DNA of 64,000 nucleotides, taken from assembly GCF_029581575.1 (NCBI RefSeq), contig NZ_CP089975.1:1240001-1304000 (forward strand), in the 5' to 3' direction. Position 1 is the stretch's first letter, and each line of letters starts with the position of its first letter. Below the pieces are notes generated by a model. The model saw only the letters and a list, made by a program, of their open reading frames with translations. It searched no databases and was not told the DNA's origin. The position numbers were made by a program, and so were the translations under genes. This document shows positions 40,954 to 62,782 of the stretch, one piece after another. Origin of the DNA: Moraxella nasibovis. Its GTDB lineage: Bacteria > Pseudomonadota > Gammaproteobacteria > Pseudomonadales > Moraxellaceae.

Positions 40954-41622
40954 TCAGGCAAACAGCGCACCGCCCTTAGCAACCGCTGCTTGATGCTCAG
41001 CTCTTGCCTCGCAGTCTGCCATCCAGCGTCTGATGTGCTGCCAGTCGCCAAGCCCGCCACGGCTTTGTAATGCCTTTGCGGCAAAATAAGTCTGAATGTC
41101 TGCGCCTGTAAACTGACCTGCCAGCCACTGTCTTTGTGCCAAATGCGCATCGAGCAAACCAAAGCTTTGACGAATGTTGCCTGAAATCATCAAAGATTCC
41201 ACCTTATTGGCAATCGCCTTTGCCACAGGGCGCACTAAAAATGGCGATTTGGTGGCGACTTTTGTCATCACCAGCCGCATCACCAAAGGCGGCATCATTG
41301 AGCTTTCAGCAAAATGCAGCCAAAAAGCATAATCCTCCCAGTGCGACGCATCGGGCGACAGCTTGCCTTGTGTGTCATAATATTTGAGCAGATATTCAAT
41401 GATAAATCCCGACTCGGCAAGCGTACACCCTCGAACATCATCCACCAAAATGGGCGCCTTACCCATCGGGTGAATGCCCATCATCTCTTTGGGCGCAAGA
41501 AAATTGGCGTTACGCGTGTGAGTGACAAGCTCATAAGGCGTGCCATACAGCGCTGACAGCTCCTCAAGCAGCCACAAAATACGAAACGAGCGAGAGTGAT
41601 TTAGGTGATGTAAAGTCAGCAT
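40954..41622 (-). CDS. Glutathione S-transferase family protein
   Basis: 222 residues from the ATG at 41622, which has a strong GGAGGC ribosome site. The frame opens seven codons earlier without such a site. The N-terminal thioredoxin-like domain contains LNHSRSFRILWLLEEL, with Ser/Arg as the likely catalytic region. APILVDD and LAESGFIIEYLL are the cis-Pro loop and glutathione-contacting Glu-Ser pair. The all-helical C-terminal domain follows. The substrate is unknown. It is convergent with dnaG. Confidence 0.9.
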   Translation of the reverse strand: MLTLHHLNHSRSFRILWLLEELSALYGTPYELVTHTRNANFLAPKEMMGIHPMGKAPILVDDVRGCTLAESGFIIEYLLKYYDTQGKLSPDASHWEDYAFWLHFAESSMMPPLVMRLVMTKVATKSPFLVRPVAKAIANKVESLMISGNIRQSFGLLDAHLAQRQWLAGQFTGADIQTYFAAKALQSRGGLGDWQHIRRWMADCEARAEHQAAVAKGGALFA

Positions 41623-41714
41623 GATGCCTCCAGACTCAATCAATGTCTAAAAAATAAAAAAGCAAAGCTCATTTTACCACGAAATCTTGGCGATGGCACG
41701 CAGACAGCCGATCC

Positions 41715-41743
41715 TAAAAAAACACCCCAAGCTTAACTTAGGG
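41715..41743 (-). terminator. Intrinsic terminator of the mesX-mesD-flavin reductase cluster
   Basis: On the minus strand CCCTAAG pairs with CTTGGGG (one G-U), and a run of seven T follows. It is located about 18 bases beyond the stop of the flavin reductase gene. Confidence 0.8.
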
Positions 41744-41760
41744 CATTGATGGCAAGGCAC

Positions 41761-42255
41761 TCACACGATCGCCGTCTGCTCACAAGTCTTGTGATAACTT
41801 CGATTAAAATAAGTTAAAGCCTCGTGGCTGTCGCTGTGCTTGATGTCGATGATTTCACAAATCATCACGCCATGCGTACCAACCTCTTTAATCTCTTGAA
41901 TCTTACAATCAAAACCAATCAAAGCATCGGACAGTAGCGGCGCACCTGTTGTCAAGGTCTCCCAAGTGCCATGCTCAAAGCGCTCATCAGAGTTGAGTCG
42001 TGATGCAAAGGTGTTGGAAAGGTGTGACTGCTCAGCGGCCAAGGTATTGACCATCAGCACCCCATTTTTGACAAAATTATCATAAAAACCAATGCTTGTA
42101 TTCATGCACACGAGCAAAGTCGGCGGTGAGTCGGTCACGCTTGCCACCGCTGATGCCGTAAAGCCATGTCTGCCTGCTGCACCATCGGTCGTCACCACAT
42201 GCACCGCCGTGGTCAGCTTTGCCATGGCGTCTTTAAAATCTGCTACATCTACCAT
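41761..42255 (-). CDS. Flavin reductase-like (FMN-binding split-barrel) protein
   Basis: 164 residues of the flavin reductase-like family, in which short proteins of this type reduce FMN/FAD with NAD(P)H for a partner monooxygenase. Typical segments are FKDAMAKLTTAVHVVTTDGAAGRHGFTASAVASVT, then PPTLLVCMNTS (flavin-binding loop), FVKNGVLMVNTLA, and a C-terminal YFNRSYHKTC. The TTG at 42288 was rejected in favour of the ATG at 42255, where the family homology begins. It lies 107 bases downstream of the core methionine synthase on the same strand, so it may supply reduced flavin to that oxygen-dependent system; this is inference. Confidence 0.88.
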   Translation of the reverse strand: MVDVADFKDAMAKLTTAVHVVTTDGAAGRHGFTASAVASVTDSPPTLLVCMNTSIGFYDNFVKNGVLMVNTLAAEQSHLSNTFASRLNSDERFEHGTWETLTTGAPLLSDALIGFDCKIQEIKEVGTHGVMICEIIDIKHSDSHEALTYFNRSYHKTCEQTAIV

Positions 42256-42301
42256 TGTTATTTTCTTAAAATTTATTTTATTTATCAATCAAAACCTTTC
42301 A

Positions 42302-42327
42302 CCCTTCGACAAGCTCAGAGTGAACGG
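42302..42327. repeat. REP-like extragenic element, copy 1
   Basis: CCCTTCGACAAGCTCAG followed by AGTGAACGG. It differs from the copy at 43499-43524 at two positions (AGT versus GGC) and lies in the mesD-flavin reductase gap. This type of short extragenic palindromic unit is widespread in proteobacteria. Confidence 0.75.
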
Positions 42328-42362
42328 TCTTGGTGGCTTTTAAAACCAAATACTATGAATGA

Positions 42363-43397
42363 TTATTTACCTGCAAGCTCATTGCGGATAATTTCGGCAC
42401 CTTGAGTCAAGGCGTTTAATTTACCACGAGCCACGGTGCGAGAAAGCGGTGCCATACCGCAGTTGGTGCTTGGGTATAGATTGTCCGCATCGACAAATTG
42501 CAAGGCTTTACGCAAAGTATCCGCCACTTGCTCTGGCGTTTCGATTTCGTTGGTCGCCACATCAATCGCCCCAACCATGACTTTTTTGCCACGAATCAGC
42601 TCAATCAAATCCATTGGCACTTTTGAGTTTTGGCATTCTAGCGACACGATGTCAATGCTTGATTTTTGTAAGAATGGGAAACTTTCTTCGTATTGACGCC
42701 ATTCGCTCCCTAGCGTTTGTTTCCAGTCGGTGTTGGCCTTGATGCCGTAACCATAGCAGATATGCACCGCAGTTTGGCATTTTAAGCCCTCTACCGCACG
42801 CTCAAGCGCCGCCACGCCCCAATCGCTCAATTCATCAAAAAACACATTAAACGCAGGCTCGTCAAACTGGATAATATCCACGCCAGCCGCTTCTAATTCT
42901 TTGGCTTCTTGGTTTAGGATTTCGGCAAATTTCCACGCCAATTTTTCACGACTCTTATAATGACCGTCATACAGCGTGTCAATCATCGTCATCGGGCCAG
43001 GCAAAGCCCATTTAATCAGCTTATCAGTATGCTGACGCAAGAATTTGGCATCTTCCACAAACACCGAATTTGGACGAGACACTTCACCCACCACGCTTGG
43101 CACGCTCGCATCATAGCGGTTGCGGATACGCACGGTTTCTCGCTTGTTAAAATCCACGCCGTCCAAATGCTCGATGAATGTCGTTACAAAGTGCTGACGA
43201 GTTTGCTCGCCGTCGCTCACAATGTCAATGCCTGCACGCGTTTGCTCAGCCAGCGACACCAAAAGTGCGTCTTGCTTGGCTTGCAATAATTCTTCGCCCT
43301 CAAATTTCCAAGGCGACCATAGCTTTTCAGGTTCGGCAAGCCAAGACGGTTTTGGCAAACTGCCTGCGGTAGAAGTTGGGAGTAAAATTTTGCTCAT
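42363..43397 (-). CDS. mesD: Core (folate-independent) methionine synthase, MesD type
   Basis: 344 residues equivalent to the catalytic C-terminal half of MetE, lacking the N-terminal folate-binding half. The zinc and homocysteine ligands are all visible: His212 and Cys214 in VHICYG, Glu254 in VSLECQ and Cys313 in STNCGMAPLSR. In the MesD family methionine is made in aerobes without methyl-folate or cobalamin, and activity depends on a DUF1852 protein and oxygen (Price, Deutschbauer and Arkin). The DUF1852 gene lies directly upstream here, which supports MesD over other MetE-like groups. The methyl donor is not established. Confidence 0.9.
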   Translation of the reverse strand: MSKILLPTSTAGSLPKPSWLAEPEKLWSPWKFEGEELLQAKQDALLVSLAEQTRAGIDIVSDGEQTRQHFVTTFIEHLDGVDFNKRETVRIRNRYDASVPSVVGEVSRPNSVFVEDAKFLRQHTDKLIKWALPGPMTMIDTLYDGHYKSREKLAWKFAEILNQEAKELEAAGVDIIQFDEPAFNVFFDELSDWGVAALERAVEGLKCQTAVHICYGYGIKANTDWKQTLGSEWRQYEESFPFLQKSSIDIVSLECQNSKVPMDLIELIRGKKVMVGAIDVATNEIETPEQVADTLRKALQFVDADNLYPSTNCGMAPLSRTVARGKLNALTQGAEIIRNELAGK

Positions 43398-43460
43398 GAT
43401 GTTATCCTAAAAATGTTTAAAAATATCTGCTCTGGTTTAAAAAGTGCGACAAAAAGAAAA

Positions 43461-43524
43461 TCATTCGTGGTGAGCTTGGCAAACCTAAGATTTTTCCACC
43501 CTTCGACAAGCTCAGGGCGAACGG
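43461..43524. repeat. REP-like extragenic element, copy 2, with inverted partner
   Basis: CCCTTCGACAAGCTCAG plus GGCGAACGG at 43499-43524. A diverged inverted copy (TTCGTGGTGAGCTTGGC) lies just before it. The two arms can fold into a long hairpin with an exact TGAGCTTG/CAAGCTCA core. It sits in the mesX-mesD gap. Confidence 0.75.
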
Positions 43525-43620
43525 AAAATCTTATTAACACACCTGATTAAACCACCAAAATATCAATCTTTTAAAAACCCAAATCAGCCGACTCATCATC
43601 GGCTGACTTGATGTTATGAA

Positions 43621-44598
43621 TTATTTTTCGGCAAGCCAAGCGTCCAAAATCTCTTTGTAAGGCTTGATGAATTTTTCTTCGGCAAGTTTGCCCTGCTTAA
43701 TCGCAAGCTCGGTACGCTCCACACGGTCGTATTCTACCAAAGTCAGCGAATAATCGTCATAATTTAAGCTGCCTTTATAAGTCTCGCCTGCAAACGAGTT
43801 GGCATTATAAATCTCTGGACGATAGATTTTTTGGAAGGCTTCCATCGTCGCAATCGTGCTAATCAGCTCAAGATTGGTGTAATCGTTCAGCAAATCAGCC
43901 GTTTCATCATAGTAGAATGCATACGGAGCAACCGAGCCTTTTGGCATGAAGTAACGCACTTTTAAGCCCATTTTTGCAAAATACTCATCGGTCAATGAAT
44001 AGTCATTTTGCACATATTCCACGCCCAAAATCGGATGCACATTGGTCGTGCGATGATAAGTGCGAGTGGTCGCCACGCTCAGGCAAAGCACTGGGGCTTT
44101 TTCATTACGAGCCTTGTATTCTGGCGAGTTTAGCACATATCTGTACAATTTGCCGTGCAACTCGCCATAGCCCTCTGGCACAGTAAAGCTCGGCTTGTCT
44201 TTGTTATGGTCAAGCAGTAGCACGCTAAAATCATAATCACGCACAAATGATGAAAAACTGTTGCCGATGATGCCGCCAGTGGTTTTGCCTGTTTTGTGGT
44301 CGGTGACATAAGTTTTTAGCCATTCAAGTACTGAAAAATACTCACCCTTGCCCTCTACATCGATGTCGATAGAAACGATTTCAAGTTGCACCGAATAACG
44401 GTCGTTGGTTGGGTTGTCCCAGTTTGCCAAATCGTTAAAACGGTTGTTAATCATCGCAATGGCTTTTTGTAGGTTTTGTTTGCGATTTTCGCCACGAGCC
44501 AGATTGGCAAAGTTGGTCGTCAAACGAGTGCTGCTCGCTGGCTCGTAGTTTTCATCAAAAGTTTCGGTATGAACTCGACAGTTAAAATTTGTGGTCAT
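43621..44598 (-). CDS. mesX: DUF1852 protein required by core methionine synthase (MesX)
   Basis: 325 residues from the ATG at 44598, which has a strong GAGGTG ribosome site. The frame is open 45 codons further upstream but without such a site. The sequence begins MTTNFNCRVHTETFDENYEPASS and includes NRFNDLANWDNPTNDRYSVQLEIVSIDIDVEGKGEYFSVLEW, the DUF1852 pattern as I remember it. No signal peptide or membrane helix is present. In Acinetobacter-type bacteria this protein is essential for MesD function together with oxygen; its chemistry is undescribed to my knowledge. Leads the mesX-mesD-flavin reductase cluster. Confidence 0.87.
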   Translation of the reverse strand: MTTNFNCRVHTETFDENYEPASSTRLTTNFANLARGENRKQNLQKAIAMINNRFNDLANWDNPTNDRYSVQLEIVSIDIDVEGKGEYFSVLEWLKTYVTDHKTGKTTGGIIGNSFSSFVRDYDFSVLLLDHNKDKPSFTVPEGYGELHGKLYRYVLNSPEYKARNEKAPVLCLSVATTRTYHRTTNVHPILGVEYVQNDYSLTDEYFAKMGLKVRYFMPKGSVAPYAFYYDETADLLNDYTNLELISTIATMEAFQKIYRPEIYNANSFAGETYKGSLNYDDYSLTLVEYDRVERTELAIKQGKLAEEKFIKPYKEILDAWLAEK

Positions 44599-44635
44599 GT
44601 GACACCTCGTGCGCCTGTTGTTTTGGAATGTGTGT

Positions 44636-44699
44636 ATTAAACCACAATTTTCTATTGAATAAAAGTGATATATTTTTGAAAAATGATGAAAATAATTCA
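44636..44699 (-). promoter_or_regulatory. Possible MetR-activated promoter of mesX
   Basis: TGAA-AATAA-TTCA at 44687-44699 is an exact match to the E. coli MetR consensus TGAANNNNNTTCA. Reading left, TTTAAT (44636-44641) could be the -10, which would place the palindrome centre near -64, the usual activation position of LysR-type regulators. The gap upstream of mesX is only 210 bases. A match of this kind can occur by chance in AT-rich DNA. Confidence 0.5.
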
Positions 44700-44808
44700 A
44701 GTTATCAGCCTTTACTCCAACAAGCACTGTCAAAATAAGCCAAAAATCATAAGTCTCATGGTTCAGTGGCTTTTAAAAGTGCAGCATTCAACAACCCAAA
44801 TCTACCGA

Positions 44809-45624
44809 TCAGATGGCAAACTTCGCCCAAATCGGTGCATGGTCGGACGGTTTTTCAAGCCCACGAATGTCATAGCTGATGCCCGCTGCCACACAGTCAT
44901 CAATCAGACTGCCAGTACAAAGGATGTGATCGATGCGCAGACCTCGTTTTGGCTCATCCTCAAAGCCACGAGAACGATAATCAAACCAGCTAAATTCGTC
45001 GGAATTTTCTGGTTTGAATTTGCGGTAAGTGTCGTGCAGCTCACGGCTCATCAGCGCCTCATACCACTCTCGCTCCTCTGGCAAAAATGAGCAAGTGCCG
45101 TTTTTTAGCCAGCGCTTTGCGTTCACCTCGCCAATGCCGACATCGCTGTCTTTGGGCGAAATGTTCATATCGCCCATGACGATCAGCTCTCGACCCTCGG
45201 CTTTTAGCTCATCGATGTAGCGGTTCAAATCAGCATAAAACGCCCTTTTCATGGGAAACTTGACCTCATGTGAGCGGTTTTCACCTTGTGGAAAATACCC
45301 ATTGATCACATCAATCGTACGCCCATTGATGTCAAATCTGGCATGAATCAGGCGGCGCTGTGCCTCTGGGTCGGCAAATGGAAAGCCCTTTTGCACAAAA
45401 ATCGGCGCAACTTTTGATAAAATCGCCACGCCATAATGCGACTTTTGTCCAAAAAATGACACATGATAACCCAATCCCTCCACATCCGCCAATGGAAAAG
45501 CCTCATCGTGCACTTTGGTCTCTTGCAGTCCGATGATGTCAGCACCAAGCACATCACGCACCGCCATCAGCTGATGCGGTCTGGCACGCAGCCCATTGAT
45601 ATTAAAGCTTACAAAAGTTGTCAT
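44809..45624 (-). CDS. xthA: Exodeoxyribonuclease III (AP endonuclease)
   Basis: 271 residues of the exonuclease-endonuclease-phosphatase fold. It cuts DNA at abasic sites in base-excision repair. Metal and active-site residues are visible in FNINGLRA (Asn), GLQETKVHD (Glu near 35), GDMNISPKDSDVG (Asp/Asn near 150), and a C-terminal RIDHILCTG and SDHAPIWAKF (Asp-His). The length fits the family. It lies upstream of the mesX cluster on the same strand but with a 210-base gap, so probably has its own transcript. Confidence 0.95.
   Translation of the reverse strand: MTTFVSFNINGLRARPHQLMAVRDVLGADIIGLQETKVHDEAFPLADVEGLGYHVSFFGQKSHYGVAILSKVAPIFVQKGFPFADPEAQRRLIHARFDINGRTIDVINGYFPQGENRSHEVKFPMKRAFYADLNRYIDELKAEGRELIVMGDMNISPKDSDVGIGEVNAKRWLKNGTCSFLPEEREWYEALMSRELHDTYRKFKPENSDEFSWFDYRSRGFEDEPKRGLRIDHILCTGSLIDDCVAAGISYDIRGLEKPSDHAPIWAKFAI

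Positions 45625-62673: not shown

Positions 62674-62782
<109 letters not shown>

Follow-up and report, generated by a model that had tools for sequence, protein, structure and literature searches.

A 64,000-nucleotide stretch of the Moraxella nasibovis genome (contig NZ_CP089975.1, positions 1,240,001 to 1,304,000; hereafter the window) contains mesX, mesD and a flavin reductase gene, a cluster associated with oxygen-dependent methionine synthesis. The host genome is complete, a single contig of 2.23 Mb, and the closest named relatives of its MesX are from Moraxella. The initial annotation, made from the window alone, had described a MetE catalytic-half protein with intact zinc ligands, a DUF1852 gene directly upstream and a flavin reductase-like gene directly downstream, all read leftwards, and these identifications are borne out by the profile matches (Table 1). 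Its layout needs correction at two points. The cluster ends at 44598 rather than 44699, and it is not closed by one terminator, a stronger hairpin with a T-run being present directly after mesX as well.

Table 1. Features of the methionine cluster and its surroundings, in window coordinates
Feature	Position	Strand	Support
mesX (PF08908, formerly DUF1852), putative oxygenase providing the methyl group to MesD, 325 amino acids	43621..44598	-	PF08908 E 5e-164
mesD, core methionine synthase, 344 amino acids	42363..43397	-	NF006589 685.6 bits, cut-off 392; PF01717
PF01613 flavin reductase, RutF/HpaC-like, 164 amino acids	41761..42255	-	PF01613 127.5 bits, E 6e-37
Hairpin and T-run between mesX and mesD, terminator or attenuator	43579..43611	-	-22.6 kcal/mol, z -5.9
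Terminator-like hairpin 3' of the flavin reductase	41721..41747	-	z -1.8 (66-base stretch)
Candidate MetR-box-like site TTGAATTATTTTCAT, upstream of mesX	44686..44700	-	one mismatch to ATGAA-N5-TTCAT
xthA, upstream neighbour of the cluster	44809-45624
Glutathione-transferase-like gene, downstream neighbour of the cluster	40954-41643
Bacterial small signal recognition particle (SRP) RNA	62678-62774	-	Rfam

A longer frame with a TTG start is available for mesX, but the PF08908 match begins only at its residue 46, and the MesX proteins of relatives also start at the position of the ATG at 44598 (58-sequence alignment). The start codon of the reductase is the ATG at 42255. There is a single copy of mesX in the genome. 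Its product matches PF08908, which Pfam names "Putative oxygenase MesX", over the full length of the family (546 bits, positions 1-323 of 323, cut-off 25). Exactly two histidines (H148 and H188), a single cysteine (C172) and the acids E92, E194, E262, E294, D61, D100, D121, D123 and D239 are invariant in all 140 MesX sequences compared.

MesD is a catalytic-domain-only PF01717 protein of the PRK09121 type, encoded beside mesX, and the only PF01717 match in the genome. Its zinc ligands H212, C214, E254 and C313 fall in the same alignment columns as those of three MetE proteins from the genus Moraxella and are invariant in 139 of 139 MesD sequences. The folate-binding N-terminal domain of MetE (PF08267) has no match in the protein or elsewhere in the genome, so this is not a MetE. 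A relative of MesD has a solved structure (PDB 3rpd_A, 630 bits). On the same strand and downstream of mesX, mesD is found in 79 of the best 80 relatives' loci and in all 48 loci from an even sample of Pseudomonadota, which excludes a chance association. In Pseudoalteromonas luteoviolacea (L051) mesX is present and no mesD was detected within the 13-kb locus. A divergent MesD subgroup (L120, L127 and L131) scores 426-450 bits against 600-729 in the other loci of the Pseudomonadota sample, and one of its loci has msuE within the operon.

Methylation of homocysteine by MesD requires MesX and oxygen but neither methyl-folate nor vitamin B12 (PMC7857596), as the initial annotation had stated. E. 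coli metE or metF mutants are rescued by mesX and mesD together, and then only under aerobic conditions (PMC7857596). Two strains seemingly avoid nitrous oxide toxicity through MesD (PMC13059711). That the cluster makes methionine is close to certain. Literature searches found no published account of the chemistry of MesX or of the methyl source.

Judged by the families searched, the cluster appears to be the only de novo route to methionine in the host. Its genome has no match to PF02219 (MetF), PF02965 (MetH) or PF08267, in a search that did not extend to flavin-independent methylenetetrahydrofolate reductases (MTHFR) or to MetH forms that lack PF02965. A homocysteine S-methyltransferase-like protein (PF02574, 309-amino-acid frame) is encoded at C1:1792325-1793197 and perhaps serves salvage; PF02574 has no match in 8 of the 13 MesX genomes of the genus. 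These 13 are among 17 genomes surveyed for the genus, and ten of them are without any MetF, MetH or MetE match. The other three are G059 and G082, with MetF and MetH, and G073, with PF02965 in a 272-amino-acid frame. Among the genomes of the genus that lack MesX, G023, G033 and G056 have MetF, MetH and MetE. The complete genome G048 has no match for MesX, MetE, MetH, MetF or a MetR-like protein, and from its gene content this strain is probably a methionine auxotroph. Across 119 Moraxellaceae genomes, MesX was found in 90, MetF in 98, MetH in 102 and the N-terminal half of MetE in 27 (25 over the cut-off). MesX is carried by 18 of the 21 family genomes without MetF (G113 being assigned by elimination, with one row unlisted). 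Among proteomes that depend on MesD alone, 69% reportedly seem to be without MetF (PMC7857596).

The flavin reductase lies above the curated PF01613 cut-off of 27 bits and below the equivalog cut-off for RutF (TIGR03615, 214.4 against 254.75 bits). It has a close solved relative (PDB 2r0x_A, 220 bits) and is the sole PF01613 match in the genome, a search that did not cover Fre-type and PF03358 reductases. In the 119 family genomes a homologue (E up to 1e-15) was found in 91, comprising 90 of the 90 with MesX and only 1 of the 29 without it. In all 90 the homologue is on the same strand and downstream of the MesX match, at a distance of at most 2755 bases (median 1259). MesX and the reductase are jointly absent from some members of three genera that otherwise have both: G023, G033, G048 and G056 (g1), G051 (g7) and G024 (g11). 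The only MesX-less genome with a homologue, G057, has it unlinked and with an in-frame stop. A decayed cluster was considered there and rejected, as there is no trace of mesX or mesD within about 5 kb and this reductase groups with unlinked paralogues.

Outside the family the picture differs. The even sample consisted of 397 Pseudomonadota genomes, 49 with MesX, and 48 loci were examined (all but that of the host), of which 47 are outside the Moraxellaceae. A PF01613 reductase follows in only one of these 47 (L139), the other match (L159) being inside the family. The initial annotation had made its interpretation depend on conservation of this neighbour; that holds throughout the MesX genomes of the family and is rare beyond it, and the PF01613 neighbour was rejected as a general feature of MesX loci. 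Counting MsuE-type reductases, present in four, a reductase of either kind is found in 5 of the 47, and three of these five loci belong to one genus. Among the best 80 of 247 MesX relatives, a set that leans to Moraxella, Acinetobacter and Pasteurellaceae and shares some genomes with the even sample, 48 loci have a linked PF01613 reductase.

Where other reductases occur they are of differing kinds. An MsuE-type flavin mononucleotide (FMN) reductase (PF03358) is encoded directly upstream of mesX in L071, L121, L138 and L152, with L121, L138 and L152 from one genus, and between mesX and mesD in L120. The two that were scanned exceed the MsuE cut-off of 212.5 bits (TIGR03566; L138 248.6, L120 231.4). 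The same msuE-mesX-mesD order is present on an Acidovorax plasmid. No report of an MsuE neighbour of mesX was found in the literature, in searches not aimed at MsuE by name. Six PF01613 neighbours were scanned with NCBIfam, and all are under the equivalog cut-offs; the best kinds were RutF-like for the window and A. baumannii, HsaB-like for Pandoraea and Pseudomonas, StyB-like for Paracoccus and HpaC_Thermus-like for Pseudoroseicyclus. The remaining PF01613 neighbours were labelled by their position in a tree of 76 distinct reductase sequences, including 21 unlinked rows, in which the Devosia row has a very long branch and long branches also underlie some deep joins. The linked reductases of the Moraxellaceae form a supported set with those of Histophilus and Lonepinella (97/96; 41 linked, 1 unlinked), and the other unlinked paralogues of the family fall outside it. 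A set of nine HsaB-like sequences (Pseudomonas, Pandoraea, Microbulbifer) and an alphaproteobacterial set of four are placed elsewhere. Over 129 loci the linked reductases are RutF-like in 37, HsaB-like in 9, StyB/HpaC-like in 4, of the Devosia type in 1 and MsuE in 5, with none in 73, and 17 changes are required to fit these labels to a quick tree of MesX. The nesting of the Histophilus and Lonepinella reductases within the Moraxella set suggests transfer of the whole cassette.

Taken together, it is probable that the reductase supplies reduced flavin to MesX, because it is found in 90 of 90 MesX genomes against 1 of 29 others, because vitamin B12 lowers both mesX and its linked reductase in A. 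baumannii, and because the host genome gave no other PF01613 match. In the expression data, the DUF1852 gene (mesX) fell by log2 -8.3 and the flavin reductase ABUW_3196 by log2 -2.5, both being lowered, unequally (PMC12892962). ABUW_3196, two locus tags from mesX, is the mesD-linked reductase as judged by its tag number and the gene order in L024. The repeated recruitment of differing, partly unrelated flavin reductases is the best evidence here that the system uses reduced flavin. MesX is most likely an oxygenase that uses O2 and is fed by reduced flavin. The reductase would reduce free FMN, or flavin adenine dinucleotide (FAD), with the nicotinamide cofactor NAD(P)H, and the reduced flavin would diffuse to MesX. 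With reduced flavin and O2, MesX would then carry out an oxygenase reaction in which some common metabolite gives up a methyl group in activated form, to be taken up by the zinc-homocysteine thiolate of MesD. As a broader and more tentative proposal, somewhat short of an even prospect, MesX may found a new class of two-component flavin-dependent oxygenases whose product is an activated methyl group, into which different NAD(P)H:flavin reductases (RutF-, HsaB- and StyB-like, and the unrelated MsuE) have repeatedly been recruited, giving an O2-driven route to methionine that bypasses folate and B12.

Several observations weigh against the supply of reduced flavin to MesX by the reductase. MesX is without similarity to known flavoprotein families or solved structures in searches of Pfam and of PDB by sequence and profile. 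The family genomes are related, so that 90 of 90 does not represent 90 independent events. For 73 of the 129 loci the search detected no linked reductase. Two of these, L009 and L010, end directly after mesD and cannot show its presence or absence; others are from Pasteurellaceae, in which MesX shares about 80% identity with that of the window. The E. coli rescue needs no added reductase gene, so a dedicated reductase is not obligatory, and the mutant work in A. baylyi and S. koreensis, in the part of the report available, names mesD and mesX as required and leaves the reductase unnamed (PMC7857596). The strict three-part system of the initial annotation is contradicted by this rescue, in which only mesX and mesD were supplied; E. 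coli does, however, encode its own PF01613 reductase, as a control search showed. Given the loci without one, the E. coli result and the mutant work that names only mesX and mesD, the reductase seems to have an auxiliary role, in which other reductases can stand in for it, rather than being an obligatory third part. The suggestion that it feeds reduced flavin to MesX is strengthened by the co-occurrence within the family and by the other reductases elsewhere, but the arrangement is rare outside the family and the idea had already been published (PMC7857596). Of the earlier interpretation as a whole, the identifications and the statements of established fact stand; the flavin proposal is not new, and the strict three-part system is contradicted.

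MesX could instead be a non-haem iron oxygenase and not a flavin enzyme, with the reductase reducing ferric iron through free reduced flavin or keeping the iron of MesX ferrous. A non-haem iron site is possible because of the two invariant histidines and several invariant acids, H148, H188 and the invariant carboxylates being enough for a 2-His-1-carboxylate site. The Pfam name says only "putative oxygenase", and the absence of flavoprotein similarity would be as expected. Remote homology of MesX to a known fold was sought and not found: at E values up to 5, the other Pfam families listed match one or two of 58 MesX members at E 0.02 or worse, and in PDB there was nothing by sequence and a best profile E of 0.8. 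Known partners of MsuE are FMNH2-dependent monooxygenases. The repeated recruitment of flavin reductases, the MsuE type included, better fits a flavin substrate, and an iron enzyme is considered unlikely.

Slightly less likely again is that the reductase is a passenger, kept beside mesD in the Moraxellaceae through shared ancestry and regulation while serving some other function, for example the general reduction of flavins or quinones. The presence of a PF01613 neighbour in just 1 of 47 sampled loci outside the family would agree with this, as would the published complementation of E. coli without a reductase (PMC7857596). However, a passenger does not readily account for the complete co-occurrence with MesX, the near-absence from 29 MesX-less genomes and the joint absence inside at least three genera, nor for the other reductases that take its place in other lineages. 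That the methyl group is held on MesX itself, for instance at Cys172, and passed on to MesD, oxygen and flavin serving to load it, is very improbable: C172 is invariant and the hairpin between the genes would tend to leave MesX in excess over MesD, which would suit a carrier or a slow enzyme, yet this cysteine may be structural, plain S-methylcysteine is a poor methyl donor, and such a role is compatible with reduced-flavin use by MesX rather than exclusive of it. Covalent binding is among the possibilities proposed by Price et al. (PMC7857596).

The hairpin between mesX and mesD is directly after mesX and is stronger than that after the reductase (shuffled mean -8.65 kcal/mol). Similar hairpins are found in the mesX-mesD gaps of other Moraxella. 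By a crude rule, a T-run hairpin is present in this gap in at least 15 of 54 reductase-linked loci against at least 2 of 87 others; the rule missed the hairpin of the window itself, so the counts are lower bounds, and some species are in both sets. In an alignment of ten rows (eight from other loci and the window twice) ten stem pairs are kept in 100 of 100 cells and two pairs have changed on both sides. The covariation score was reached by 7 of 500 shuffles and the number of pairs changed on both sides by 33 of 500, which gives modest support. The hairpin could reduce expression of mesD and the reductase relative to mesX, and with so strong a hairpin between mesX and mesD the three genes may not share a single transcript. 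Riboswitch control of mesX was considered and set aside, an Rfam gathering search of the window returning the SRP RNA only. A 17-mer, CTGAGCTTGTCGAAGGG, has just four copies genome-wide, one of them with a mismatch, and two of the four are in the two gaps of the cluster (42302-42318 and 43499-43515).

Regulation of mesX by a MetR is supported by several lines. PF08908-metE2 has been placed in the MetR regulon of several groups, with the box consensus ATGAA-N5-TTCAT (PMC4239095). Of 140 loci, 92 have a box within one mismatch of this consensus in the 300 bases that precede mesX. For other neighbouring genes the figure is 21 of 869, and the expectation from dinucleotide shuffles is 5.3. In 21 rows from Moraxella and the host genus, 13 have a box with one mismatch or fewer and 8 have two mismatches. 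Nine of 27 LysR genes, from one neighbour cluster, were scanned, and all nine have MetR as best match at 185-298 bits, under the cut-off of 382. A single MetR-like match (268-283 bits, also under the cut-off) is present in 16 of the 17 genomes of the genus, only G048 being without it, and in the three MetE-bearing genomes the MetR-like gene is divergent to metE and 0.7-2 kb apart. It is very likely, on this evidence, that the genus has a MetR, which would have come to act on mesX in genomes that lost metE. Because MetR senses homocysteine, MetH working with B12 would be expected to reduce expression of mesX. The MetR-like regulator would probably turn on mesX transcription when homocysteine builds up, and a path from B12 through MetH and MetR to lower mesX expression would fit the A. 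baumannii data. A 2014 survey reported MetR as absent from the Moraxellaceae, with four genomes tabulated (PMC4239095); the MetR-like protein of Moraxella appears to contradict this and offers a simple reading of the B12 shut-off of mesX in Acinetobacter.

Other genes were also seen at MesX loci. Profiles for PF01613-like and MsuE-like genes were run against every frame of at least 60 amino acids in all loci. Pfam scans of neighbours covered 59 and 38 cluster-adjacent genes from loci without a PF01613 reductase, with the 25 commonest families listed; they omit L047 and L053, which have large frames in the mesD cluster by BLAST, L010 and L018, both nearly identical to L009, the L071 frame on the opposite strand, and all 52 genes that lie downstream of mesD on the opposite strand. 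MesX of the Pasteurellaceae (Mannheimia, Ursidibacter, Actinobacillus, Bibersteinia, Histophilus, Lonepinella; L007, L009, L010, L012, L014-L016, L018) is 79-82% identical to that of the window, and no reductase was seen at L007, L012, L014 or L018. In Alcaligenes (L047:3468-5756 and L053:3442-5733) a frame of about 763 amino acids, in the mesD cluster by BLAST, is directly upstream of mesX on the same strand; it is probably a full MetE, and a divergent LysR gene is present. A distant MTHFR-like protein is encoded near mesX in L112, L115, L116, L080 and G111:C11:11793-12413, divergent to mesX in L112 (two frames), L115, L116 and G111, and that of L115 matches PF02219 (52 bits) and PF12225. TauE/SafE transporter genes (PF01925) are located beside mesX or after the reductase in 21 of 140 loci from several families, for example at L117:3004-3828, L035:8692-9492 and L217:6214-7014. 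The sulfonate-type methyl source at which these might hint was not adopted, as the published E. coli system works in minimal glucose medium (PMC7857596). MesX is found in 208 plasmid records. Eleven plasmid loci were read with their annotation, and an annotated flavin reductase is beside mesX-mesD in four (Croceibacterium, Shinella, A. lwoffii, Acidovorax) and not in seven, the gene table being incomplete. The A. lwoffii locus (L217), on a mobilizable plasmid (NZ_CP118964.1, 45410-53366), has the order mesX-mesD-flavin reductase-TauE with IS5 genes upstream.

This is a known system with a published flavin hypothesis. The MesD/MesX system was published in 2021, together with the proposal of reduced-flavin use by MesX; the reductase neighbours ACIAD3522 and Ga0059261_2931 were named there and flavin use by MesX was predicted (PMC7857596). 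New here are the comparative support and the apparent contradiction of the older regulatory survey. The co-occurrence and replacement of reductases take flavin use by MesX from a remark to a prediction that is testable in several lineages, and genomes that, like this one, have no MetE, MetH or MetF match and a single PF01613 reductase are the cleanest testing ground.

MesD of the window shares its catalytic half and zinc site with the cobalamin-independent MetE, but is without the N-terminal folate-binding half, in a genome without a MetF match. The same three gene families in the same order are known from Acinetobacter baylyi ADP1 (ACIAD3523/ACIAD3524, with ACIAD3522 as neighbour) and Sphingomonas koreensis (PMC7857596), and the mesX, mesD and reductase of A. 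baylyi DSM 14961 (L043) include a reductase of the same tree set as that of the window. In contrast to those systems, no other de novo methionine synthase or MetF was found here, and a terminator-like hairpin separates mesX from mesD. The reductase of the window is of the same family, PF01613, as the short-chain flavin reductases of two-component monooxygenases (RutF, HpaC, HsaB and StyB), but it is under every NCBIfam equivalog cut-off, and known monooxygenases have no sequence relationship to MesX, its presumed partner. MsuE, which is of a different Pfam family and is not present in the window, occupies the place of the reductase in the five loci and the Acidovorax plasmid described above, where its partner would be MesX.

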